Part shown: piece by piece, positions 34,663-47,207 of the stretch | Position numbering within the stretch: position 1 is the stretch's first letter | Layout of the letters: each line of letters begins with the position of its first letter | Source of the DNA: Gallionella sp. | Lineage (GTDB): Bacteria; Pseudomonadota; Gammaproteobacteria; Burkholderiales; Gallionellaceae | Assembly (NCBI GenBank): GCA_028707275.1 | Contig: JAQTUP010000001.1 | Span: 124,001 to 188,000, forward strand | DNA length: 64,000 bases | Direction: 5' to 3' | Translations under genes and position numbers: made by a program | The notes under the pieces: model-generated | What the model saw: only the letters and a program-made list of their open reading frames with translations | The model's database searches: none | What the model was told of the DNA's origin: nothing

Positions 34663-34997
34663 TATTTTTAAGGCATGCCAGTCAGGCGGACTCATCGCTT
34701 AAATGCTGTATATTTTGAAAATCAAGAAGACTTATCGTATTGATCCTGTGTCGTTTTTTTAAAATTCAGGATTTGCTCCACAATCTAAAGCCGCGGCACA
34801 CATAGTGTCGCTGCTTTTCAACCGATCAACACAGCTCAATGCCCCACGAGCACGCCGGACGAACCCACGGCCGTCAAAGACAGCCGGGTTTAAGTTCATC
34901 AACAGTCGATCAAGAAATAGCTGCATGATCTATACTCGCCGCTGCACCCATCGCCCCCCAATAACCAGCGGGACAAATCTTGAAACAGATAAATCCG
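34663..34997. other. Intergenic region upstream of phrB
   Basis: About 335 bp without a supported gene. A TATACT hexamer at 34931-34936 is a candidate -10 for phrB, with no clear -35. A weak inverted repeat (ATCCTG...CAGGAT) with T/A-rich centre around 34743-34773 could be a poor terminator for the phosphoesterase gene. A photoregulator site was looked for but not recognised. Confidence 0.35.
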
Positions 34998-36416
34998 ATG
35001 CCACACTATTCCCGTACCATTTGCTGGTTCCGGCGCGATTTACGCCTGCACGATCATGCCGCCCTGTATCACGCGCTGAAAAACAGCGAGGCGGTGCATT
35101 GCGTGTTTGTCTTCGACACCGACATTCTGGACGCCTTGCCCGACAAACAGGATCGCCGGGTCGAGTTTATCTGGCACAGCCTCAATGAACTCCAAGCCCG
35201 GTTGCAACAACTGGGCGGCACCCTGCGTGTGTTGCACGGCAAGGCACAAGTGCTTATTCCGCAACTGGCACGCGAACTTGACGTGCAGGCGGTCTTTTGC
35301 AACCGGGATTACGAACCGGAAGCGCGGCTGCGGGATCGGACAGTCAAACAGGCTTTAGGCGACATTGCGTTCCACCCTTACAAGGATCAGGTCATCTTCG
35401 AAGAGTCCGAGATTCTGACAGGCGCCGGAAAACCCTATAGCGTGTTCACGCCATACAAAAATGCCTGGCTCAAAAAACTGGATTCTTTTTACCTCCGCGC
35501 CTACCCCACAGAGCGCTATTTTTCATCCTTTGCCCGGGGTGCCGCAACAGTGCTGCCGACACTGGCCTCACTGGGTTTTATACCCGGCAAACTCGACAGT
35601 GCATATCCTGTCGGCGAGTCGGGTGCTGAAAAATTATTCGATGATTTTATCGGGCGTATCTCGCAATATCACGAGACGCGCAATTTTCCGTCTGTCCAGG
35701 GCGTATCCTGTTTATCCGCGCACTTGCGCTTCGGCACGATCTCGATACGGAGCGTCGCCTCTGACGCACATCACACAGAAGGGACAGGCGCGCAAACCTG
35801 GTTAGCTGAACTGATCTGGCGCGAGTTCTATCAGATGCTTTTGTTCCATCACCCCCATCTGGCGCAAGGCCTGACTTTCAAGCCACAGTTTAATTTAATC
35901 GAATTTTCCGACGATCAGGAAAAATTTGCCGCATGGTGCGAGGCGCGCACGGGCTACCCGCTCATCGATGCCGCGATGCGCCAGCTCAACCAGACAGGCT
36001 ATATGCACAATCGCCTGCGCATGGTGGCCGCCTCTTTTCTGGTCAAGGATTTACACATAGACTGGCGCTGGGGCGAGCGCTATTTCGCCGGGCATCTGCT
36101 GGATTTTGATCTGGCGGCCAATAATGGCGGCTGGCAGTGGGCAGCCTCCACCGGCTGCGATGCACAACCCTGGTTCCGCATCTTTAATCCTGTCACCCAG
36201 TCCGAGAAATTCGACGCCGATGGCAAGTTTATTCGCCGCTATCTGCCTGAACTGGCGCTTTGCCCGGACAAATGGATACATGCGCCGTGGTTGATGCCCG
36301 CTGCTGAACAAAAGCGCTGCGGGGTGATGATAGGCCGGGATTATCCATCACCTGTCGTCGATCACGCCACGGCCAGAATCAGGACATTGGCGATGTATCA
36401 GGCAGCCAGTTCATAG
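34998..36416 (+). CDS. phrB: Deoxyribodipyrimidine photolyase (class I CPD photolyase)
   Basis: A 472-residue FAD-dependent, light-driven DNA repair enzyme. The N-terminal antenna domain starts ICWFRRDLRLHDHAALYHAL. The FAD-binding C-terminal domain contains LIWREFYQMLLFHHP, HNRLRMVAASFLVKDL and the tryptophan-rich NNGGWQWAASTGCDAQPWFR. Length matches E. coli PhrB (472). The ATG at 34998 is preferred; a TTG at 34980 in the same frame follows GGGA and would add six residues. It is convergent with udg. Light-linked gene content nearby (B12 photoreceptor-like protein at 39.6 kb) may be relevant. Confidence 0.95.
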   Translation: MPHYSRTICWFRRDLRLHDHAALYHALKNSEAVHCVFVFDTDILDALPDKQDRRVEFIWHSLNELQARLQQLGGTLRVLHGKAQVLIPQLARELDVQAVFCNRDYEPEARLRDRTVKQALGDIAFHPYKDQVIFEESEILTGAGKPYSVFTPYKNAWLKKLDSFYLRAYPTERYFSSFARGAATVLPTLASLGFIPGKLDSAYPVGESGAEKLFDDFIGRISQYHETRNFPSVQGVSCLSAHLRFGTISIRSVASDAHHTEGTGAQTWLAELIWREFYQMLLFHHPHLAQGLTFKPQFNLIEFSDDQEKFAAWCEARTGYPLIDAAMRQLNQTGYMHNRLRMVAASFLVKDLHIDWRWGERYFAGHLLDFDLAANNGGWQWAASTGCDAQPWFRIFNPVTQSEKFDADGKFIRRYLPELALCPDKWIHAPWLMPAAEQKRCGVMIGRDYPSPVVDHATARIRTLAMYQAASS

Positions 36417-38618: not shown

Positions 38619-39596
38619 TTAGCCATCCTCAGTTGCGCAATATGCGGTCACGCGGTTTCTGCCGCCATTTTTGGAGGCATACATGGCCATGTCCACTTGT
38701 TTTAGCAGGATGCTGACATTATCGGAACTTTGGTATTCGGCCACGCCAAAACTGGCTGTGATACCTCGCTGTATGCTGCCAAAGTCAAACTTCCCGATTG
38801 ACGCACGCAATTGTTCGGCCTTCGTCATCGCACCCTCAAGCGGGGTTTGGGGCAAAACGATGATGAACTCTTCTCCACCCAACCGTGCCACCAGATCAAC
38901 CTTGCGTATAACACTCTGCGTCAACGCTGAAAATGCGAGCAATACTTCATCGCCCACGTCATGACCAAAATCATCGTTCACCTGTTTAAAAAAATCGATG
39001 TCGATCATAATGACCGAAAACGATTCCTGATAGCGCTTGTAACGTTCCATTGAATTTTGCAGAAAATCCATCAAACAACGGCGATTCGCCAGTCCTGTGA
39101 GCGGATCCTTCAGACTTTGTGTTCTCAGGTTCGTTTCGCTTTCTTGCAACTTGCGGTGGCTACGGGCCAATTCGCGCTGTGTGGCAGTCAGTTGTTCATT
39201 GAGTTCGATCACCTGCGCATTGAGCATCTCCATTTCGGCTACGTCATACTCACCCACGATCAATAGCTGATTGCCTGTTCGATGCACCACTCCGATCAAC
39301 GAGCGGCAAGCCGTATTGATGTCTCCGACATTAATGATGCCTTCATAAACGGGACATTCCGCTTGAGCTGATACGGCGAGTAATTGAGCAAAGGTAGGTT
39401 GAATAAAAAAATTGCGCACATCCAGTCCTGGCAAGAGTTTGTCGTCCGGAATATTCAGCAGGCGGCCACAGCCCCGATTGGCCTGCAACAACTGTCCGTT
39501 TTCGGATATCCGTGCCACCACAACGGCCACCAGGGAATCCAGGCACTGCAGCAGACAGCTCTCATTCCGGGCGCCAAGCACAATCGGGGGCTTCAT
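38619..39596 (-). CDS. PAS-like sensor diguanylate cyclase (GGEEF)
   Basis: A 325-residue protein with an N-terminal PAS-like domain (about 10-130: VAVVVARISENGQLLQANRG), a short coiled coil (about 133-165) and a GGDEF domain (about 165-320). The active site is intact (RLGGEEF) and an RxxD inhibitory site (RKVD) sits five residues before it, predicting product-inhibited c-di-GMP synthesis. The ATG at 39596 shares one base with the stop of the B12-binding gene (TAATG), and GGAG lies 8 nt upstream, so translation is coupled. The cobalamin protein is its likely input partner. Confidence 0.9.
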   Translation of the reverse strand: MKPPIVLGARNESCLLQCLDSLVAVVVARISENGQLLQANRGCGRLLNIPDDKLLPGLDVRNFFIQPTFAQLLAVSAQAECPVYEGIINVGDINTACRSLIGVVHRTGNQLLIVGEYDVAEMEMLNAQVIELNEQLTATQRELARSHRKLQESETNLRTQSLKDPLTGLANRRCLMDFLQNSMERYKRYQESFSVIMIDIDFFKQVNDDFGHDVGDEVLLAFSALTQSVIRKVDLVARLGGEEFIIVLPQTPLEGAMTKAEQLRASIGKFDFGSIQRGITASFGVAEYQSSDNVSILLKQVDMAMYASKNGGRNRVTAYCATEDG

Positions 39597-40618
39597 TAAA
39601 GCTGCTCCAGTGCGTGCAGTGCATCGGCAGACCAACCGTCCGCCCCGGTGATACGCCATATTTTTGGCGTATATATGGAAGCGAGTCCTCCCACCCAGAT
39701 TTCCGGACACGCGCTACCCATTTCGGCATGCAACAACTCTATCGTCAGACGGGCCGCAGAGATGTGATTGGGCAAGGAGATCGACAATGCCAGCAGACGG
39801 GGACGTCTGGCATCGACTTCACGCACCAGATCCGTCATGGGAAGATTAGCGCCCAGGCACAATACGTCCCAGCCTTCAGTCTCAAAGCCATCGGCAAGGA
39901 TACGCAAGCCCAGCGAATGATGATTGCCTTCAACACAGGCGAACATCGCAGTCTTACCCACAGAAGGTGAAAAACTCGCGTGCATATAGGCATGGGCCAA
40001 AACATTCTGGCAGATTGCCGTGGCCAGATGTTCTTGCGACACGGTGACCTGATTGTTCTGCCACAGATTGCCCACCTGATACAAGGCGGGCTGTACCAGT
40101 TTTACCGCAGCCTGAGTCAGGGATAGTCCATTATTCATGACTTGCATCATCAAAGACAATGCTTCCTTATGCTGCCCCCCCAGAATGGACAGGCGATATT
40201 GCTCTGCCTGCGGCAGCGCCGGGTAAGAACTTTGCCCGTAAATGACAGGAGGAAATTCCAGCAACAAAGCGGAGCGAGCTGCACTCAAAATTGCAGCCAC
40301 GACACCTGCCTGGACAGCGGGGATATTGTTGTTGAAGAATGTTTCCAGAAAGTCAAAAGAAGTGCTTAAATGAGCGGCAGGAACGCCGCGACTGCTCAGC
40401 ACGCCCTTAAGCCAGAGTGCGTATTGTGTAAAAATACCCGGCTCATTCCCAACGAGTGCAGCTTGCAAATAGTCCAGATGGTAGAACATATCCTGCCGAC
40501 AAATTTGGCGGCCACGTGCGCCGAACTTTTGCAATTCCCCTATATATCTGGAACAGATGGCATTGGTCGCAAAATCGACACACGATTCCCGCCACGGAGT
40601 CAGGTCAACGGCGTTCAT
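39596..40618 (-). CDS. Stand-alone B12-binding protein with CarH-type Wx9EH motif
   Basis: A 340-residue soluble protein. Residues about 1-140 have no recognised fold and no HTH. Residues about 140-215 form the four-helix cobalamin cap (B12-binding-2): W186, E196 and H197 make the Wx9EH motif that surrounds the upper axial ligand in CarH/LitR adenosylcobalamin photoreceptors. Residues about 222-335 are the Rossmann-like B12-binding domain with H234-S-L-G237 as the likely lower-ligand loop; the usual acidic residue two places before the His is Asn. No catalytic methyltransferase partner is near. It overlaps the ABM gene (4 nt) and the GGDEF gene (1 nt). I infer a light or cobalamin sensor. Confidence 0.82.
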   Translation of the reverse strand: MNAVDLTPWRESCVDFATNAICSRYIGELQKFGARGRQICRQDMFYHLDYLQAALVGNEPGIFTQYALWLKGVLSSRGVPAAHLSTSFDFLETFFNNNIPAVQAGVVAAILSAARSALLLEFPPVIYGQSSYPALPQAEQYRLSILGGQHKEALSLMMQVMNNGLSLTQAAVKLVQPALYQVGNLWQNNQVTVSQEHLATAICQNVLAHAYMHASFSPSVGKTAMFACVEGNHHSLGLRILADGFETEGWDVLCLGANLPMTDLVREVDARRPRLLALSISLPNHISAARLTIELLHAEMGSACPEIWVGGLASIYTPKIWRITGADGWSADALHALEQL

Positions 40619-40914
40619 TGAGCGACCACCTGAAAGTACATCATTTTGGTGCGTTCAGGATCAAGCTTCAATCCTTTTGGCATTCCCTGATGCGAATCAC
40701 GATAAGCATGACTATGATGCCAGGCTTGAAAATCTGCCTCTTCCTGCCACCAGGTCAACAACCAGAATTCCTGATCATTATCCGAGGGATTGGCGACCTC
40801 CATTCTGATAAAACCCTGTGCATGATCGACATGATGTGGCCGAAAACGAAAGGCATCTGTAACTTCTTTCCCCATATCGTTTGCAATGGAAAATCGACTG
40901 ATCGCTAAAAACAT
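40615..40914 (-). CDS. ABM-domain protein (IsdG/antibiotic-biosynthesis-monooxygenase fold)
   Basis: A 99-residue single ABM domain: MFLAISRFSIANDMGKEVTD at the start, and WQEEADFQAWHHSHAYRDSH in the second half. An Asn early (SIAND), a Trp (FQAW) and a His (RDSH) stand roughly where IsdG-type haem monooxygenases have their N-W-H triad, so haem or another aromatic ligand is possible but not shown. It is the first gene of a three-gene overlapping operon with the B12-binding and GGDEF genes, suggesting a role in the same signalling unit. Confidence 0.78.
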   Translation of the reverse strand: MFLAISRFSIANDMGKEVTDAFRFRPHHVDHAQGFIRMEVANPSDNDQEFWLLTWWQEEADFQAWHHSHAYRDSHQGMPKGLKLDPERTKMMYFQVVAQ

Positions 40915-41088: not shown

Positions 41089-42003
41089 TCAGCACACCCG
41101 GTTACGTCCGGACTCTTTGGCTTGATACAACCTCTCATCGGCCCTGCTGAGCAGATCTGTCGGCGTCATGTCGATAGTTGGAATAACGCTGGCAAGCCCC
41201 ACACTCACCGTCACAAAATTTGAAACGTCTGAAAATCCGTGTGCAATTTTCATACTTTCGACATGGCTGCAAAAACGCTCGGCAATCACCCTGGCGCCTG
41301 TTGCGTCAGTATCGGGCAGAATCGCCACGAACTCCTCCCCCCCGTACCTCGCCACAAAATCGGAAGGGCGATCAATGGAACCTGCCAGTGATGCGGCTAC
41401 TTTTTTCAGACAGTTATCGCCGACACCGTGACCATAGTGATCGTTATAGCGTTTAAAATAATCAATGTCGAGCATAATCAAGGACAGCGGCATACCGTCC
41501 CGCAGTGCCCGCTTCCATTCAATCTCCAACGTTTCATCGAAACGGCGCCGATTGGGGATGTTGGTCAGGCCATCGAGCATGACCTGAGATTCGAGCAAAT
41601 CTGTTTTTATTTTGAGATTGATGTGGTTGCGCACGCGCGCGGCCACAATGGGTAAGTGAAAAGGCTTGGCGATGTAATCCACCGCCCCCAGGTTCAAACC
41701 ATATTCCTCATCTACCGTATCGGCCTTGGCGGTGACAAATATGACCGGGACATTTTTTGTTTCGGGTGCCAGCTTCAATCGTCGGCAAACTTCGTAGCCG
41801 TCCATGTCAGGCATCATCACGTCCAGCAATATCAAATCCGGCGCACCTACTTTAGCGATGATCTCAAATGCGGCTTTGCCACTGCCTGCGACTCTGACGC
41901 GATAATCCGCTCGTAACGATTCGGCCAGTACCTGAATATTCGTAGGCGTGTCATCCACGATGAGGATGAGCGCCTTTTTTTCTTCGTCTATGTTGTCACT
42001 CAT
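41089..42003 (-). CDS. REC-GGDEF response regulator diguanylate cyclase
   Basis: A 304-residue two-domain protein. The receiver (about 10-130) has acidic residues in LIVDD, the phosphoacceptor Asp in LILLDVMMPDMDGYEV and the Lys in YIAKPF. The GGDEF domain (about 140-300) has intact RYGGEEF with an RxxD inhibitory site (RPSD) five residues upstream. Phosphorylation should promote dimerisation and c-di-GMP synthesis, as in WspR/PleD-type proteins. Its start overlaps the hybrid kinase stop by 8 nt, so that kinase is the likely phosphodonor. Confidence 0.93.
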   Translation of the reverse strand: MSDNIDEEKKALILIVDDTPTNIQVLAESLRADYRVRVAGSGKAAFEIIAKVGAPDLILLDVMMPDMDGYEVCRRLKLAPETKNVPVIFVTAKADTVDEEYGLNLGAVDYIAKPFHLPIVAARVRNHINLKIKTDLLESQVMLDGLTNIPNRRRFDETLEIEWKRALRDGMPLSLIMLDIDYFKRYNDHYGHGVGDNCLKKVAASLAGSIDRPSDFVARYGGEEFVAILPDTDATGARVIAERFCSHVESMKIAHGFSDVSNFVTVSVGLASVIPTIDMTPTDLLSRADERLYQAKESGRNRVC

Positions 42004-45000
42004 GGAAGTGTCCCTCTGTGCACGGCAGATTCTCCAGTGCTAATTTTGCCTTATCGTAATCCGTCCTATCCAGTGCACGCTCCAGCTCCTTTAATCTTTC
42101 CTGCAAAGGTCCGCACCCGACGGCATGCTTGAGTTCGTCCATCAATTCAAATGGCACGAACTCGTAGTTTTCCACCAGCGTGCGTATTTGTTTGACCAAC
42201 AAAGAAGCCCGCTGCCAGTTACAGATATCGCAATCATATTCGGCTGCAACGAGAATCGTTTTCGCCGGTTGATTCAGACATGAAATGCTGTTTATTGTAT
42301 GGGAAAGTGCGAGATCAAAAACCCCCGTGTCAATGACGGCAGAACCCGCCTTGAGCGCCTGCTCCAGCACTTCGCTAGCTTGAGAGAGTTCCATGGCGCC
42401 AAGGTTGGCAGCAGCCCCCTTGATGCGGTGGACGAATGCTGCACAAGCCTTAAGATTCCCTTCCCTGACAAGTCTGGATAATTCGGCCTGTGCATCGGAG
42501 AACTCGATTGCAAATTTTCTCAACAATTCGATCAGCAACTCACTGTTACCGGCCAGCCGGTCAAGGGCTGCTGGCACATCAAAACCCGGCAAACTTTCAG
42601 CCAGTCCGACTTGTTGCGACACCCCACAGAGATTTTTCACCCCCTTGGATGAACCCCGAACGACAGGCGTTTGAAAGGTCGGCTTGATCCAGCGCAGCAG
42701 CGCATGCAGCAACTCTTGCTGTGCAATAGGTTTGGCAACGTGATCATTCATTCCCGCAGCAATGCAGGCCGCACGATCCTGCTCCATCACGGCTGCCGTC
42801 ATGGCGATGACAGGCAACCCGTTCCAGCGTTCTTCCTGCCGGATTCGCCGCGCAGCCTCCAGACCATCCATCACCGGCATCTGCAAATCCATCAGCACAG
42901 CATCGAAATCGGCCTGTTGCAATATTTCCAGCGCTTGCCTGCCATTATTGGCCACCGTCACATCCAGCCCCATGCGCTCGAGAATGTCTGTCGCCACCAA
43001 TTGATTGGTCTCGTTATCTTCCGCCAACAAAATGCGCGCCCCCCGAATCGATGACGTGTCCCCGATGATGTCGGCGCTGGATTTCACGTCGCGAGGGTGT
43101 TTATGCCCCCCCTGAAAATCCATGATGGTGTCAAATAAACTGGACGAAGTGACCGGCTTGTTGAGTACCGCATCCAGATGAATACCTTGCGCCTCCTGCA
43201 GTAAAATCTCCTTGCTGTGGGCTGTGACCATGATGATCACGGGCAACCTGGCAGTCTGTTTATTTTGCCCGGATTCGCGTATGCGCCGTGCCACTTCCAC
43301 GCCGCTCATACCCGGCATTTTCCAATCCAGCAGCACCAGTTCAAAGGCTTGCTCCGGGTCATGCGCACGCTGTTCGATCAGAGCCAGCGCCTCTTGCCCT
43401 GATGCGGCCTCCGTCACCTGAAATTGCCATGAGCCCAGCAATTCGCGCAGGGTCAGACGCGAAATTTCCAGATCATCCACCACCAGAGCCCGCATCCCCC
43501 GCAAGGCAGAGGGTGAATGCTCGATTCGAGCCTGACCCGACACAGGAAGAGCAATGGTAAAACTGAACGTGCTGCCCTTGCCCGCCTCACTGTTCACCAC
43601 AATATCGCCCCCCATCTTTTCCACCAGTCTCTTGCTGATAGTCAGCCCCAGCCCCGTACCGCCGAAACGACGGGTGATGGAACTGTCGGCTTGGGTGAAC
43701 GCCTTAAACAGGCGCAGCATTTGCTCCTGACTCATGCCAATCCCTGTATCGCTTACGGAAAAATTCAGCGTGCTGATCCCATCTGCCAGAGCCCGCTGCT
43801 CCACCTTGATGACGATCTGGCCATGTTCGGTAAATTTCACCGCATTGCCGACCAGATTATTCATCACCTGCCCCAGACGCAAGGAATCACCCAGCACTCG
43901 TTCGGGAATGTCAGGCGCGATGTGCAACACCAGCTCGATGCCTTTTTCTTCGGCTCGCACATTAAACAAATCGGTCACATTCTCCAGCAGATCATCAAGA
44001 CGCAATTCTGTTTGATCCAGCTCCAATCGACCGGCCTCGACCTTGGAATAGTCCAGAATATCGTTGATGATGGACAGCAATGCCTTGGAGGAGAGATGTA
44101 TCTTGTCCAGATAATTGTGCAGCCTGGGCGGCAACTCGCCGGTACCCAGAGCGAGATCGGACAGGCCGATGATCGCGTTCATCGGTGTGCGTATTTCGTG
44201 ACTCATGTTGGCCAAAAATTCGCTCTTGGCGCGATTGGCGTTTTCGGCCTCTAGTTTGGCAGAGGACAGCGCCAGCTCGGTGTTTTTGAATTCACTGACA
44301 TCGGTCAGGATCAACAATAAATGTGGCTCACCCTCTCGAATCAATTTAATTAAGTCGAAATCCAGCCAGACATCTTTGCCGTAGCTGGTAACAAGATGGG
44401 TTTCACTGTGCTGGTTCTCCCCTGTCTCCAGCGCCTTATTCGCGGCATCGAGCATGCCCGACTTTTCCCATGAGCGAATGTGCCGGAAGTTCTGTGCCCG
44501 CATTTGTTCAACGGTCGCGCCTATTATCCTGGCAGCCGCTGTATTAGCAATGACGCAATCACCGCTCGCTTTATAAACCACGATACCCAGCGTAGATTCG
44601 GAAATGATCTTGCCGTTGAATTCGAGCAATTCGGCGATTTTTTGCTCGGCAACCTTTTGTTCGGTTTGATCGACATTAATACCAATCATGCGCAGCGGCT
44701 TACCCGCTTCATCAAACTGGGTAAGTGAAGCGGCCTTGAGATAATGGATGGAACCGTCCGGCCAGATCACGCGAAATTCCGGCGTATATTCACGCTCCCC
44801 GCGCAACGCCGCCTGAATATCGTCTTCCGTGCGCGCCTTATCTTCCGGGTGGATGGTGCTGGCCCATGCCTCGTAGGCGCCTGCAAAATCCCCCATCCGT
44901 AATCCGTACAAACGATACATCGCCTCGTCCCATACCAGCTGGTTATCTACCACATCCCAGTCCCAGATGCCGATGATGCCGGCGCGGGTAGCAATGGCGA

Positions 45001-47128
45001 GGCGCTCTTCACTGTTTTTCAGTGCCACTTCGGCCAGCATACGCTCGGTAATATCCTGCACCGTACCCATCGAGCGCTGCGCTATGCCTTGCTCGTTATA
45101 TACAGAATAGCCGCGTTCTTGCACGTGTTTGACTCGCCCGTCCGCCATTAACAGGCGATGGATGACTTCGTAAGGGATGTGCTGCGAGACCGACTGCATA
45201 AAGGCAACATTGACCCTGTCTCGATCATCGGGATGAATGCGCTCCAGAAAAACTTCATAGGATGCGTTAAATTGGTCAGAGTCAATTTCAAAAATCCGGA
45301 ATATTTCGTCGGACCAATTCAATTTGTTGTCGGCCAAATCCAACTCCCAGCTTCCCACATGTGCGATGCGTTGAGCTTCGTTGAGCCTGTCCTTCTGTGT
45401 AAGCAATGCTTTTTCTGCCTGCTTGCGCCCGGTGATGTCGCGGATGAACGTCACGATCACGCCGCCGCGCGCGGGCAGGAATCGGGCGCTGATTTCCACA
45501 TCAATCAGGTGCCCGTCTTTGTGCCGGTGCCGTGTTTCAAACAGCAAAGGCTCGCCGCGCATGATTGTCTGTATGTTGCGTTCTATCTTCTCCTGATCCT
45601 GCTCTGCCTCAATCAGAGTAATCGGCTGGTTCAAAAGTTCTTCGCGGCTGTAACCTGCCATATTGCAATAAGCGGCATTGACATCGACCAGCAGCCCGTT
45701 CCGGGCAGAAACCAGCCAAAAACCGTCCGCCGTGGTTTGCAAAATAGTTCTGAACTCTACTTCTGCCTGCACGCGGTCGGTGATGTCACGGTTGCTGACG
45801 CGGCGCCCCATAAATTGCCCATCGACCCCATAAACCGGGCGGCAGACATGGGCGATCCAGCGAATCTCCCCGTCGCGCCGCACGATGCGAAAATCAACAT
45901 TATCATCCTCGCGACTCTCAAAACCTGCTATGTGGCTCTGTGCCAAATGCTGGTCATCCGGGTGAACGATGCTTTCAAGCAGATCGGGCGTGGCCACAAA
46001 CTCGATCTGGGAATAACCCGTGATTTGCTCGCATGAGGGGTTCATGTAGAGAATTTCGCGATTGACTCCCTGCCAGTATTCCCAGTCGTAGGTATAGTCC
46101 GCCACGATACGAAGTGTGTCTTTTTGCCCCGCCAAAGCCACGGTCGCCGCAATGAGGCGTTGCCAGGCGCGGTAAAACAGCCATGACAGCCACAACGTAA
46201 CCAGCAAGAAGAACGCCAGCATCGCTGCCACTCTGAGCATTTCCTGTCGCCATTCGTCCAGAAAATCCTCGGCGGATAAACCGACAATGATGTAATAAGG
46301 CAAAGAGGCAGGCTTGCGAAAGGACACCACCCGCTCGATGTCGTCTATGGGTATGGTGGCAATATAGGTTCCGCTGGTTTTTCCGGCTTGAATCAGTTCA
46401 AAAAATTTGCCAGACACCGTTTTATTGCCGAGGGACGCATCGATACTCTGCGGCTCGGGATGGCGGACAATAAGGCCGAATTCCCTGTCGCGCAGCGCAA
46501 TGACGCCATTTTCACCTATGTCGAGCGCGGTAAATATTTTACTGAGCTGTTCCAGGGCAATGTTCGCGTAAACCACACCGCCGAAGGAACCATCCGGCAG
46601 ATGAATGGCGCGCGAGACGATTACAACCCATTTTTTATCGATGCGTGCCAATACCGGCCGGGCGATCACCCGACCCGCATTTGGATTGTTGCGCTGTGCA
46701 AGAAAATACTCACGGTCGGCTACATTGACGCGGGTATTGGGCGTGACACCGATGCCATATCTGACCGCCCCTTGTGCATCGGCCACCCTAAGACTCAGGA
46801 CATCCGGCAGGCGTGTCTTTAGTTTCGTCAAAAAGGCATTTATCGCCTGGGCATCGACAGAGCCTTTGGCATTTTGCCTGTCAATTTCGTCCACCGCCGC
46901 AAGCAGGCTGATGTCAATCTTTTCGAACGCATCAATGAGGTGTTGCTCCAGCAAGTTCGACATGTTGCGGGTTGCGACGGCCGCATCTTCCTGATCCTGC
47001 TGCTTGCTGTGGTTGAGCCAAAGCACCGCCAACAAAATGACGAACAGATTGACCAGCAGCACAGTCACGGCCAGCCACTTGATCACGGATGCGGAAGGTT
47101 TTTCTAAATCGAACGGTTTGCTGATCAT
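41996..47128 (-). CDS. Multi-PAS hybrid histidine kinase with two receivers and Hpt
   Basis: A 1710-residue membrane kinase. TM1 (WLAVTVLLVNLFVILLAVLW) precedes a periplasmic dCache-type sensor, then TM2 (AAMLAFFLLVTLWLSWLFYR). Several PAS/PAC domains follow (about 340-990). HisKA has the phosphorylatable His in MSHEIRTPMN; HATPase has the N box NLVGNAVKFTEHG and GGTGLGLTIS. Receiver 1 has LVLLDWKMPGMSG, receiver 2 has VLMDLQMPVMDG, and a C-terminal Hpt has FVHRIKGAAANLG. This is a complete phosphorelay in one chain. It should feed the overlapping REC-GGDEF gene. The ATG at 47128 gives MISKPFDLEK; the longer form is atypical. Confidence 0.92.
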   Translation of the reverse strand: MISKPFDLEKPSASVIKWLAVTVLLVNLFVILLAVLWLNHSKQQDQEDAAVATRNMSNLLEQHLIDAFEKIDISLLAAVDEIDRQNAKGSVDAQAINAFLTKLKTRLPDVLSLRVADAQGAVRYGIGVTPNTRVNVADREYFLAQRNNPNAGRVIARPVLARIDKKWVVIVSRAIHLPDGSFGGVVYANIALEQLSKIFTALDIGENGVIALRDREFGLIVRHPEPQSIDASLGNKTVSGKFFELIQAGKTSGTYIATIPIDDIERVVSFRKPASLPYYIIVGLSAEDFLDEWRQEMLRVAAMLAFFLLVTLWLSWLFYRAWQRLIAATVALAGQKDTLRIVADYTYDWEYWQGVNREILYMNPSCEQITGYSQIEFVATPDLLESIVHPDDQHLAQSHIAGFESREDDNVDFRIVRRDGEIRWIAHVCRPVYGVDGQFMGRRVSNRDITDRVQAEVEFRTILQTTADGFWLVSARNGLLVDVNAAYCNMAGYSREELLNQPITLIEAEQDQEKIERNIQTIMRGEPLLFETRHRHKDGHLIDVEISARFLPARGGVIVTFIRDITGRKQAEKALLTQKDRLNEAQRIAHVGSWELDLADNKLNWSDEIFRIFEIDSDQFNASYEVFLERIHPDDRDRVNVAFMQSVSQHIPYEVIHRLLMADGRVKHVQERGYSVYNEQGIAQRSMGTVQDITERMLAEVALKNSEERLAIATRAGIIGIWDWDVVDNQLVWDEAMYRLYGLRMGDFAGAYEAWASTIHPEDKARTEDDIQAALRGEREYTPEFRVIWPDGSIHYLKAASLTQFDEAGKPLRMIGINVDQTEQKVAEQKIAELLEFNGKIISESTLGIVVYKASGDCVIANTAAARIIGATVEQMRAQNFRHIRSWEKSGMLDAANKALETGENQHSETHLVTSYGKDVWLDFDLIKLIREGEPHLLLILTDVSEFKNTELALSSAKLEAENANRAKSEFLANMSHEIRTPMNAIIGLSDLALGTGELPPRLHNYLDKIHLSSKALLSIINDILDYSKVEAGRLELDQTELRLDDLLENVTDLFNVRAEEKGIELVLHIAPDIPERVLGDSLRLGQVMNNLVGNAVKFTEHGQIVIKVEQRALADGISTLNFSVSDTGIGMSQEQMLRLFKAFTQADSSITRRFGGTGLGLTISKRLVEKMGGDIVVNSEAGKGSTFSFTIALPVSGQARIEHSPSALRGMRALVVDDLEISRLTLRELLGSWQFQVTEAASGQEALALIEQRAHDPEQAFELVLLDWKMPGMSGVEVARRIRESGQNKQTARLPVIIMVTAHSKEILLQEAQGIHLDAVLNKPVTSSSLFDTIMDFQGGHKHPRDVKSSADIIGDTSSIRGARILLAEDNETNQLVATDILERMGLDVTVANNGRQALEILQQADFDAVLMDLQMPVMDGLEAARRIRQEERWNGLPVIAMTAAVMEQDRAACIAAGMNDHVAKPIAQQELLHALLRWIKPTFQTPVVRGSSKGVKNLCGVSQQVGLAESLPGFDVPAALDRLAGNSELLIELLRKFAIEFSDAQAELSRLVREGNLKACAAFVHRIKGAAANLGAMELSQASEVLEQALKAGSAVIDTGVFDLALSHTINSISCLNQPAKTILVAAEYDCDICNWQRASLLVKQIRTLVENYEFVPFELMDELKHAVGCGPLQERLKELERALDRTDYDKAKLALENLPCTEGHFHE

Positions 47129-47207
47129 TGCATCACCTTTAGCAAACAGACAACACCCGGACAAACAGGAACCGGCCAAAATTCACCGGCCTGCTGCGAC
47201 AAATTGC

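Follow-up and report, generated by a model that had tools for sequence, protein, structure and literature searches.

What does a light-type cobalamin domain do when it carries no DNA-binding domain and is encoded directly beside a diguanylate cyclase? The question is raised by three overlapping minus-strand genes at positions 38619–40914 of a 64,000-nucleotide stretch of Gallionella sp. DNA (contig JAQTUP010000001.1; the whole stretch is hereafter the window), which encode an antibiotic biosynthesis monooxygenase (ABM) domain protein, a B12-binding protein, and a GGEEF protein. An earlier reading made from the letters alone (the sequence-only reading) had proposed a CarH/LitR-like photoreceptor coupled to cyclic di-GMP (c-di-GMP) output. 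Our analysis predicts that the B12 protein is a standalone photocobilin, with a bilin-type globin ahead of its cobalamin domain, and that the three genes form a conserved cassette. We give a probability of about 55% to the reading that the trio is a self-contained light-to-c-di-GMP switch. Publications are cited by PMC number.

The sequence places the ABM and B12 genes in a 4-nt overlap (ATGA) and the B12 and cyclase genes in a 1-nt overlap (TAATG), as the sequence-only reading had it. Candidate photocobilin starts were listed by script from −30 to +90 nt relative to the ABM stop; the window and all 13 of the relatives inspected have one between −10 and +33 nt. The features discussed below are as follows.

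40615–40914, minus strand: ABM gene, 99 residues (Pfam ABM, 48.2 bits against a cut-off of 23.1)
39596–40618, minus strand: B12 protein gene, 340 residues (Pfam B12-binding, 56.8 bits; B12-binding_2, 45 bits)
40265–40618, minus strand: predicted photoglobin domain, residues 1–118 (profile matches, below)
40490–40501, minus strand: C40-R-Q-D43, a CxRD-type site (alignment with SasPcob and allophycocyanin)
40412–40414, minus strand: W69, aligned to SasPcob Trp296 (Trp in 24 of 24 rows)
39599–40207, minus strand: cobalamin-binding domain, four-helix cap plus Rossmann fold, residues 138–340 (Pfam; Foldseek)
40028–40063, minus strand: W186-x9-E196-H197 adenosyl-pocket light signature, with G183 (sequence and alignment)
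39917–39919, minus strand: H234, predicted lower axial Co ligand (His in 24 of 24 rows)
38619–39596, minus strand: PAS-coiled coil-GGEEF diguanylate cyclase gene, 325 residues from the TAATG start (Pfam GGDEF, 151.9 bits, from a scan of the cyclase frame that began at 39587)
39243–39527, minus strand: PAS-like domain, residues 24–118 (model topology; resemblance to the N termini of partners that are kinases or ABM fusions)
39108–39242, minus strand: coiled coil, residues 119–163, with the LNEQLTATQREL motif common to partners (sequence and model)
38865–38906, minus strand: RKVD I-site and GGEEF active-site loop (sequence)

A Predicted Standalone Photocobilin

When the PDB was searched with the B12 protein, SasPcob came first (8j2w/8j2x; E = 2e-28), followed by 8jbs, the B12 domain of a Chloracidobacterium MerR-family protein, and by AbDPcob (8j2y). 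The same search paired residues 14–91, a stretch not part of the cobalamin domain, with the biliverdin-binding globin at the SasPcob C terminus. A profile of the N-terminal region alone, from which four divergent rows (L037, L053, L054, and L076) were excluded, matched the SasPcob biliverdin domain at E = 2.2e-9 and allophycocyanin alpha at E = 1.9e-6, and the full-length profile of relatives reached allophycocyanin at E = 5.6e-5. This photoglobin, covering residues 1–118, was absent from the sequence-only reading. Photoglobins are related to phycobiliproteins, and photocobilins are a published family of proteins that combine B12 with biliverdin.

We modeled the protein with AlphaFold from a 24-row alignment of its relatives, the window sequence included. 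In the model (mean pLDDT 92.4), the N-terminal domain is entirely helical, and the cobalamin domain after it has the four-helix/Rossmann architecture. In a Foldseek search, the cobalamin domain matched 8jbs best (2.2 Å), the photocobilins at root-mean-square deviations of 1.7–2.3 Å, and also CarH; the best 50 matches listed were all cobalamin-domain proteins with no globin among them, so the globin assignment rests on sequence. With the globin first and the cobalamin domain second, the B12 protein is best classed, on present profile matches, as a standalone photocobilin. A CarH that has lost its DNA-binding domain was rejected, the N-terminal domain being a photoglobin; Pfam found no helix-turn-helix in the protein. 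The earlier idea of a light or cobalamin module steering c-di-GMP thus survives in part. The light-type adenosylcobalamin (AdoCbl) domain without a helix-turn-helix, the translational coupling to a cyclase with intact motifs, and protein contact as the most likely route (given an in vitro effect in trans; PMC10979010) all speak for it, whereas its framing as a novel CarH/LitR derivative does not hold, the PDB matches being photocobilins and the N terminus a bilin-type globin.

A single-protein scan of the genome contig collection found no relative. Relatives were found in plasmid records of Azospirillum, Skermanella, Ilyobacter, Streptomyces, and Nonomuraea, where 4 of 15 records were inspected and no ABM match was obtained at E = 1e-10.

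Residues of the Two Putative Pigment Sites

The published light-type cobalamin signature consists of GxxW, EH, GxxH, and GxxxP (PMC11796333), and all four elements are present in the B12 protein as GNLW, EH, GNHH, and GANLP. G183, W186, E196, H197, H234, and G237 are invariant in all 24 alignment rows and the signature proline is found in 23. The W186-x9-E196-H197 and H234-S-L-G motifs stand as given in the sequence-only reading. The asparagine at position 232, which it had called a deviation from the usual acidic residue, turned out to be ordinary variation (Asn in 5, Ala in 2, and Asp or Glu in 17 of the 24 rows).

On the globin side, D43 aligns with SasPcob Asp270 and is Asp in 20 of 24 rows, and W69 aligns with Trp296. 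Asp270 is a named biliverdin contact and Trp296 touches both biliverdin ring D and the corrin (PMC10979010); by alignment, both members of this contact pair are matched in the window protein. To relate the residue numbers of the paper to those of the chain we shifted them by six, a value deduced from Trp61/Glu71/His72, and the same shift puts the AbPcob histidine at the D43 position, in agreement with the published statement (PMC10979010). Three residues ahead of D43, C40 falls on the chromophore cysteine of the allophycocyanin C-L-R-D motif in the family profile alignment. Photocobilins are said to lack a bilin-linking cysteine (PMC10979010); a cysteine occupies the C40 position in 12 of 24 alignment rows and in 17 of the 26 ABM-linked photoglobins described below (otherwise Tyr in 5, Gly in 3, and Val in 1), and we predict that the published rule fails for this branch. 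Genome G467, in which no S-type ABM was found, has three photocobilin paralogues (L037, L053, and L054); in all of them Trp replaces the Cys and His the Asp, and they are possibly B12-only sensors.

A Recurrent ABM Partner

The ABM protein belongs to the dimeric alpha-beta barrel fold by its Pfam match, aligns with MhuD residues 7–75, and matched 1iuj, MhuD, and IsdI in the PDB sequence search; its NCBIfam haem-oxygenase scores are far below the cut-offs. Its triad is S6-W65-H75 and its C-terminal signature PKGLKL. The triad of IsdG-type haem oxygenases is Asn-Trp-His (PMC5557675, PMC6018153), and since Ser replaces the defining Asn we do not file the protein among them. The possible haem-binding ABM partner suggested by the sequence-only reading was nevertheless a good guess, as the ABM protein proves, on alignment, to be a conserved partner with a changed catalytic triad.

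Starting from the ABM, we searched the genome collection with two queries, the window ABM and the ABM of L036; the latter came from beside a photocobilin and is hence not fully independent. The scan used two peptide patterns and so sees the signature subfamily among ABMs; it matched 94 stretches, of which 16 were confirmed (14 in metagenome-assembled genomes and 2 in isolates). All 16 hold a photoglobin downstream, as the next gene in 15 and about 3 kb on in L067, which is cut by a contig end. The cobalamin domain was also seen in 14, L058 having the globin only and L067 being cut. The hosts include Rhodoferax, Planctomycetota, Sedimenticola (two), Oleiphilus, Alphaproteobacteria including Reyranella, Nitrosomonas nitrosa, Chthoniobacterales, Hydrogenedentes, and Acidobacteriota. 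When the photocobilin served as the starting point, 16 loci with photoglobin and cobalamin domain were obtained, the window included, of which 10 have an S-type ABM; this count omits cobalamin-only matches (L004, L005, and many CarH-like proteins), L078, and 7 rows without a retrieved locus, in which the match starts no earlier than profile position 108.

The cross-genome search for the trio that had been suggested thus gave 26 loci with S-type ABM and photoglobin, L068 and L069 being near-identical and the ABM of L035 divergently oriented. Among the linked ABMs, Ser6 and Trp65 are found in 26 of 26 and His75 in 25 of 26, and their scores against the S-type profile (129–157 bits) are well separated from those of five N-type rows, which represent four distinct genes as L078 and L125 are identical (45–61 bits). 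By these counts the cassette is real and conserved. In 5 of the 26 loci (L036, L066, L067, L070, and L072) the ABM forms one protein with the output partner, and not with the sensor; an apparent ABM-photocobilin fusion in L068/L069 was ruled out, the two domains lying in different frames.

Some loci depart from the common layout. The ABM, globin, cobalamin domain, and (partial) GGDEF of L077 are spread over four genes, and L078 combines an ABM having the usual Asn with a gene for the cobalamin protein, its divergent globin being encoded separately. In L066 (1770–2994), the globin and cobalamin matches lie in two different overlapping frames. In L058 (5001–6413; Planctomycetota) the cobalamin domain is lacking: after the ABM come a globin-only protein and a histidine kinase, so that this may be a cassette that works with bilin alone.

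Exchangeable Output Partners

The window cyclase has an RKVD I-site five residues before GGEEF and hence both the GG(D/E)EF and the RxxD motif, from which it is predicted to be an active diguanylate cyclase. Its model (mean pLDDT 77, pTM 0.48, both helix ends under 50) shows a PAS-like domain, a 45-residue helix, and the GGDEF domain, and the best fold matches are PAS-GGDEF structures. The sequence-only description of a PAS-like GGEEF protein with an RxxD site is accurate for GGEEF and RKVD; Pfam gave no PAS match in this protein, and the PAS call comes from the model and from homology to partners that do match PAS.

We took as output partner the protein encoded after the photocobilin or joined to the ABM in one chain. 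It is a GGDEF protein in 9 of the 26 loci (window, L057, L059, L060, L072, L077, and L080–L082), a histidine kinase in 12 (L034, L035, L058, L061–L065, L067–L069, and L075), and a PAS-coiled-coil protein ending in a Cys-rich motif in 3 (L036, L066, and L070), the class of L057, L059, L060, L062, L065, L069, L077, and L080–L082 coming from our own small profiles and not from Pfam; in L071 and L074 the partner was not recognised or is cut off. L057, L059, and L060 show GGEEF. The N-terminal regions of the partners align with each other by hhalign (P = 1.3e-4 with probability 54, 1.4e-8, and 7e-10), in hand-cropped groups of 6 GGDEF-type or related, 9 kinase, and 5 ABM-fused sequences that include the start of the coiled coil, which raises the score. 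A coiled coil resembling LNNELxxxQRxLxKxN is common to many partners. The output partners thus share a PAS/coiled-coil input region whose catalytic end swaps GGDEF for histidine kinase.

In the tree of cobalamin domains, the GGDEF-coupled proteins nearest the window form one clade (9 rows, SH-aLRT 99), and GGDEF partners also occur outside it (L072 and L112). The GGDEF partner gene is split between two frames in L080 (2475–3490), L081 (2478–3484), and L082 (555–1494), at different places in each and with two of the three loci from one genus; sequencing error, decay, or frameshifting may account for this. L005 (970–3412), from the same genus as the window, encodes a cobalamin-only protein beside a PAS-histidine kinase and a response regulator, and no S-type ABM was found in its genome; the output thus differs, and the globin is missing, even in a close relative. 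In L112 (3363–5406), on a plasmid of the named isolate Ilyobacter polytropus, a cobalamin-dependent protein without recognisable photoglobin overlaps a PAS-like GGDEF gene, an arrangement that may show how the module acts without bilin.

Proposed Mechanism and Its Alternatives

The sequences themselves show the domains, the residues, the coupling of the genes, and their co-occurrence; the chromophores, the light response, the direction of control, and the chemistry of the ABM protein we infer as follows. AdoCbl would sit in the C-terminal domain with H234 below and W186, E196, and H197 round the adenosyl group, and a bilin in the N-terminal photoglobin at D43 and W69, with a possible bond to C40. 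The Co–C bond would break when AdoCbl absorbs green or near-UV light, or when the bilin absorbs red light, and the photocobilin would change in shape and oligomeric state; direct contact would relay the change to the PAS/coiled-coil region of the co-translated partner, where altered dimerisation of the GGEEF domain would change c-di-GMP synthesis, with either sign. The ABM protein would support the bilin side, most likely by making bilin from haem, and remain in the complex. The 340-residue protein quite likely senses light by AdoCbl, and its photoglobin probably binds a bilin. In vitro, photocobilins in the light state affect a diguanylate cyclase domain supplied as a separate protein (PMC10979010); we propose the same for this natural pair and regard direct control of the partner cyclase as likely. 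That the ABM makes the bilin is a tentative proposal, to which we give somewhat less than an even chance.

We compared ABM content with the state of the bilin pocket. Asp is kept at the D43 position in 26 of 26 ABM-linked photoglobins. In the six loci with photoglobin and cobalamin domain but no S-type ABM, it is kept in 2 (L033 and L038) and lost in 4, three of which are paralogues in one genome. Genome-wide, of 12 genomes with an intact pocket 10 have an S-type ABM, against none of 5 in which the globin is missing or the pocket broken (Fisher P = 0.003, uncorrected; a second uncorrected Fisher value was 0.008); three of the seven genomes without it (G284, G478, and G547) hold a distant N-type ABM. 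The plainest case is L004, sister to the window and Rhodoferax proteins in a quick tree (SH-aLRT 99) and the nearest relative to have lost the globin: it keeps a cobalamin domain (236 residues) and PAS-GGDEF, with a coiled coil between PAS and GGDEF 14 residues shorter than in the window; its genome has no S-type ABM. The canonical haem oxygenase PF01126 had no match in 31 of 32 genomes holding these loci, the window's host included. The one genome with it, G347, carries L036, the only linked ABM in which the haem-ligand His is lost (to Gln), a suggestive coincidence in a single case. HugZ-type enzymes were not found over the curated cut-off in 25 genomes, with weaker matches in 4.

Several results weigh against the switch as proposed. 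Placed on the tree, the correlation between ABM and pocket comes down to 2 independent pairs on supported branches (P = 0.5); with phylogeny taken into account the link is not significant and proves nothing. Plasmid copies in Azospirillum and Skermanella keep C-x-x-D without a local ABM, and genome G411 (L038) has an intact pocket and neither an S-type ABM nor PF01126 was found in it. The 32 genomes include cobalamin-only loci and 14 of them are known to be at least 90% complete, and PF01126 occurs in 14 of 369 genomes of the class, so its absence alone is unremarkable. The IsdG-type haem oxygenases that have been characterised need the Asn missing from the ABM, or it plays an important part in them (PMC5557675, PMC6018153), and the protein may therefore not be a catalyst. 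The fusion of ABM to output, and not to sensor, in the five loci also fits a signalling role. Finally, SasPcob without biliverdin activated the cyclase in the dark and inhibited it in the light (PMC10979010), so the direction of control is uncertain even in the model system.

The ABM may instead be a haem- or bilin-binding signalling subunit (a sensor, chaperone, or bilin-loading factor) that bridges photocobilin and PAS output, the bilin being supplied from elsewhere in the cell, a serious possibility although we lean against it. Ser in place of the catalytic Asn in every linked ABM, the N-terminal fusions to PAS output, and the retention of the domain in L036 after loss of the haem ligand are all as expected for such a subunit, whereas the conservation of the haem-ligand His in 25 of 26 and of the ruffling Trp in 26 of 26, the lack of a canonical haem oxygenase match in most hosts, and the failure to find S-type ABM in the 5 genomes searched that have a broken pocket or no globin are more easily reconciled with an enzyme. 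At the other extreme, the S-W-H ABM would be a new haem-cleaving enzyme whose non-standard bilin, made on site, is attached covalently to the phycobiliprotein-type cysteine of the photoglobin, beside AdoCbl, the cassette then being a portable two-pigment photoreceptor with an exchangeable output (GGDEF or histidine kinase) that sometimes bears the ABM; we consider this unlikely.

We think it improbable that the B12 protein senses AdoCbl supply or redox/oxygen, and not light, with the globin as a structural or interdomain clamp. Ilyobacter, where the cobalamin protein stands beside a PAS-GGDEF gene without recognisable photoglobin, is an anaerobe. Furthermore, AdoCbl alone cuts the cyclase activity of AbDPcob in the dark, and the globin of that protein binds little biliverdin (PMC10979010). 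Against these points stand the Trp, Glu, and His of the light-type adenosyl pocket, invariant in the whole alignment, and the biliverdin-contact Asp, kept at every ABM-linked locus. A corrinoid methyl-transfer protein that merely neighbors an unrelated cyclase is very improbable: MtgC, MtbC, and other corrinoid proteins are weakly similar to it, but the NCBIfam corrinoid models score far below cut-off (as does the CarH model, 45.9 against 400) and the light signature is intact. The sequence-only reading had named corrinoid methyltransferase neighbors of the homologues as a check; the recurrent neighbors seen were ABM, GGDEF, and histidine kinase genes, in surveys that included no search aimed at corrinoid methyltransferases, and such a partner is disfavored by both scores and neighbors.

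Surroundings of the Locus

The host genome is 99.95% complete and has two B12-binding_2 matches, the B12 protein of the trio and a 1259-residue frame that, from its length, is probably MetH; the B12 protein is thus the only candidate B12 photosensor of the genome by this family. A cobalamin adenosyltransferase is also present. No B12 riboswitch was matched by Rfam at the gathering threshold within the window. Between 38300 and 41200, promoter-like sites (3, with 3.4 expected by chance) were not above chance, and terminator-like sites numbered 7 against 2.8.

A photolyase-like frame, named by reading its sequence, lies at 34980–36416 on the plus strand. It ends 2.2 kb from the end of the GGDEF gene and not 3.5 kb away as first claimed, and tblastn found no match to it in any of 16 related loci, several of which were shorter than ±5 kb; as a functional partner it was ruled out on this lack of conservation. 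Immediately upstream of the trio on the same strand is a REC-GGDEF (PleD-like) response regulator (41089–42003), which puts two diguanylate cyclases side by side. It is overlapped by a 1727-residue frame (41996–47179, minus strand) that reads like a hybrid PAS histidine kinase.

Significance and Comparison with Known Systems

Publications already describe photocobilins that control a diguanylate cyclase, either within one polypeptide or in trans. No description of the ABM partnership, of the attachment-type cysteine, or of the exchangeable output was found in the literature searched, although a 2022 photoglobin paper may already mention neighbors or cysteines. The function of standalone photocobilins was described as less clear in 2024 (PMC10979010). 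The present locus gives one a natural, co-translated candidate target, a diguanylate cyclase here and a histidine kinase in relatives, which makes that function directly testable. It also suggests a bilin supply route for bacteria without canonical haem oxygenase and a possible two-color optogenetic switch for c-di-GMP.

CarH/LitR and 8jbs share with the window protein the cobalamin fold and the adenosyl-pocket signature, 8jbs being the top structural match of the model, but the window protein has an N-terminal globin where CarH/LitR have a MerR helix-turn-helix. AerR (7TE2) is a B12-binding regulator matched by profile (E = 7e-9), and SiaC/SiaD (7E6G) is a diguanylate cyclase complexed with a separate activator protein. 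SiaD was also the best NCBIfam match of the window GGEEF protein, below cut-off. AerR, which is not known to carry a DNA-binding domain, acts by protein contact, but its partner is a transcription factor and neither a photoglobin nor an ABM partner is known for it; SiaC is not known to be a photoreceptor. The ABM protein resembles IsdG/MhuD/HmuQ-type haem oxygenases in its fold, haem-ligand His, ruffling Trp, and G-F and W56 positions, and differs in the triad Ser and in its scores far under the NCBIfam cut-offs. In the pre-PcyA "pre-2" clusters, a bilin-synthesis gene likewise stands beside a bilin-binding globin (BBAG-2) and a B12-binding protein, but that gene is a ferredoxin-dependent bilin reductase and BBAG-2 has no CXRD motif (PMC10151467). 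The phrase "antibiotic biosynthesis monooxygenase" is absent from that paper and from two photocobilin papers.

The closest parallels are the photocobilins themselves. In AbDPcob (8J2Y), a B12/bilin-type module controls c-di-GMP synthesis and light activates it more than 10-fold; it is a single polypeptide with His for the biliverdin Asp and weak biliverdin binding, whereas the window has separate genes and keeps the Asp (PMC10979010). SasPcob (Saccharothrix syringae, 8J2W/8J2X) has the W-x9-EH AdoCbl domain, the biliverdin Asp and Trp, and no output domain, and acts on a diguanylate cyclase domain in trans in vitro; the cited portion describes no natural partner gene or ABM (PMC10979010). Its globin is C-terminal and has no Cys at the attachment position, whereas in the window protein the globin is N-terminal and carries C40, and photocobilin groups with the cobalamin domain at either end have been mentioned (PMC10979010).

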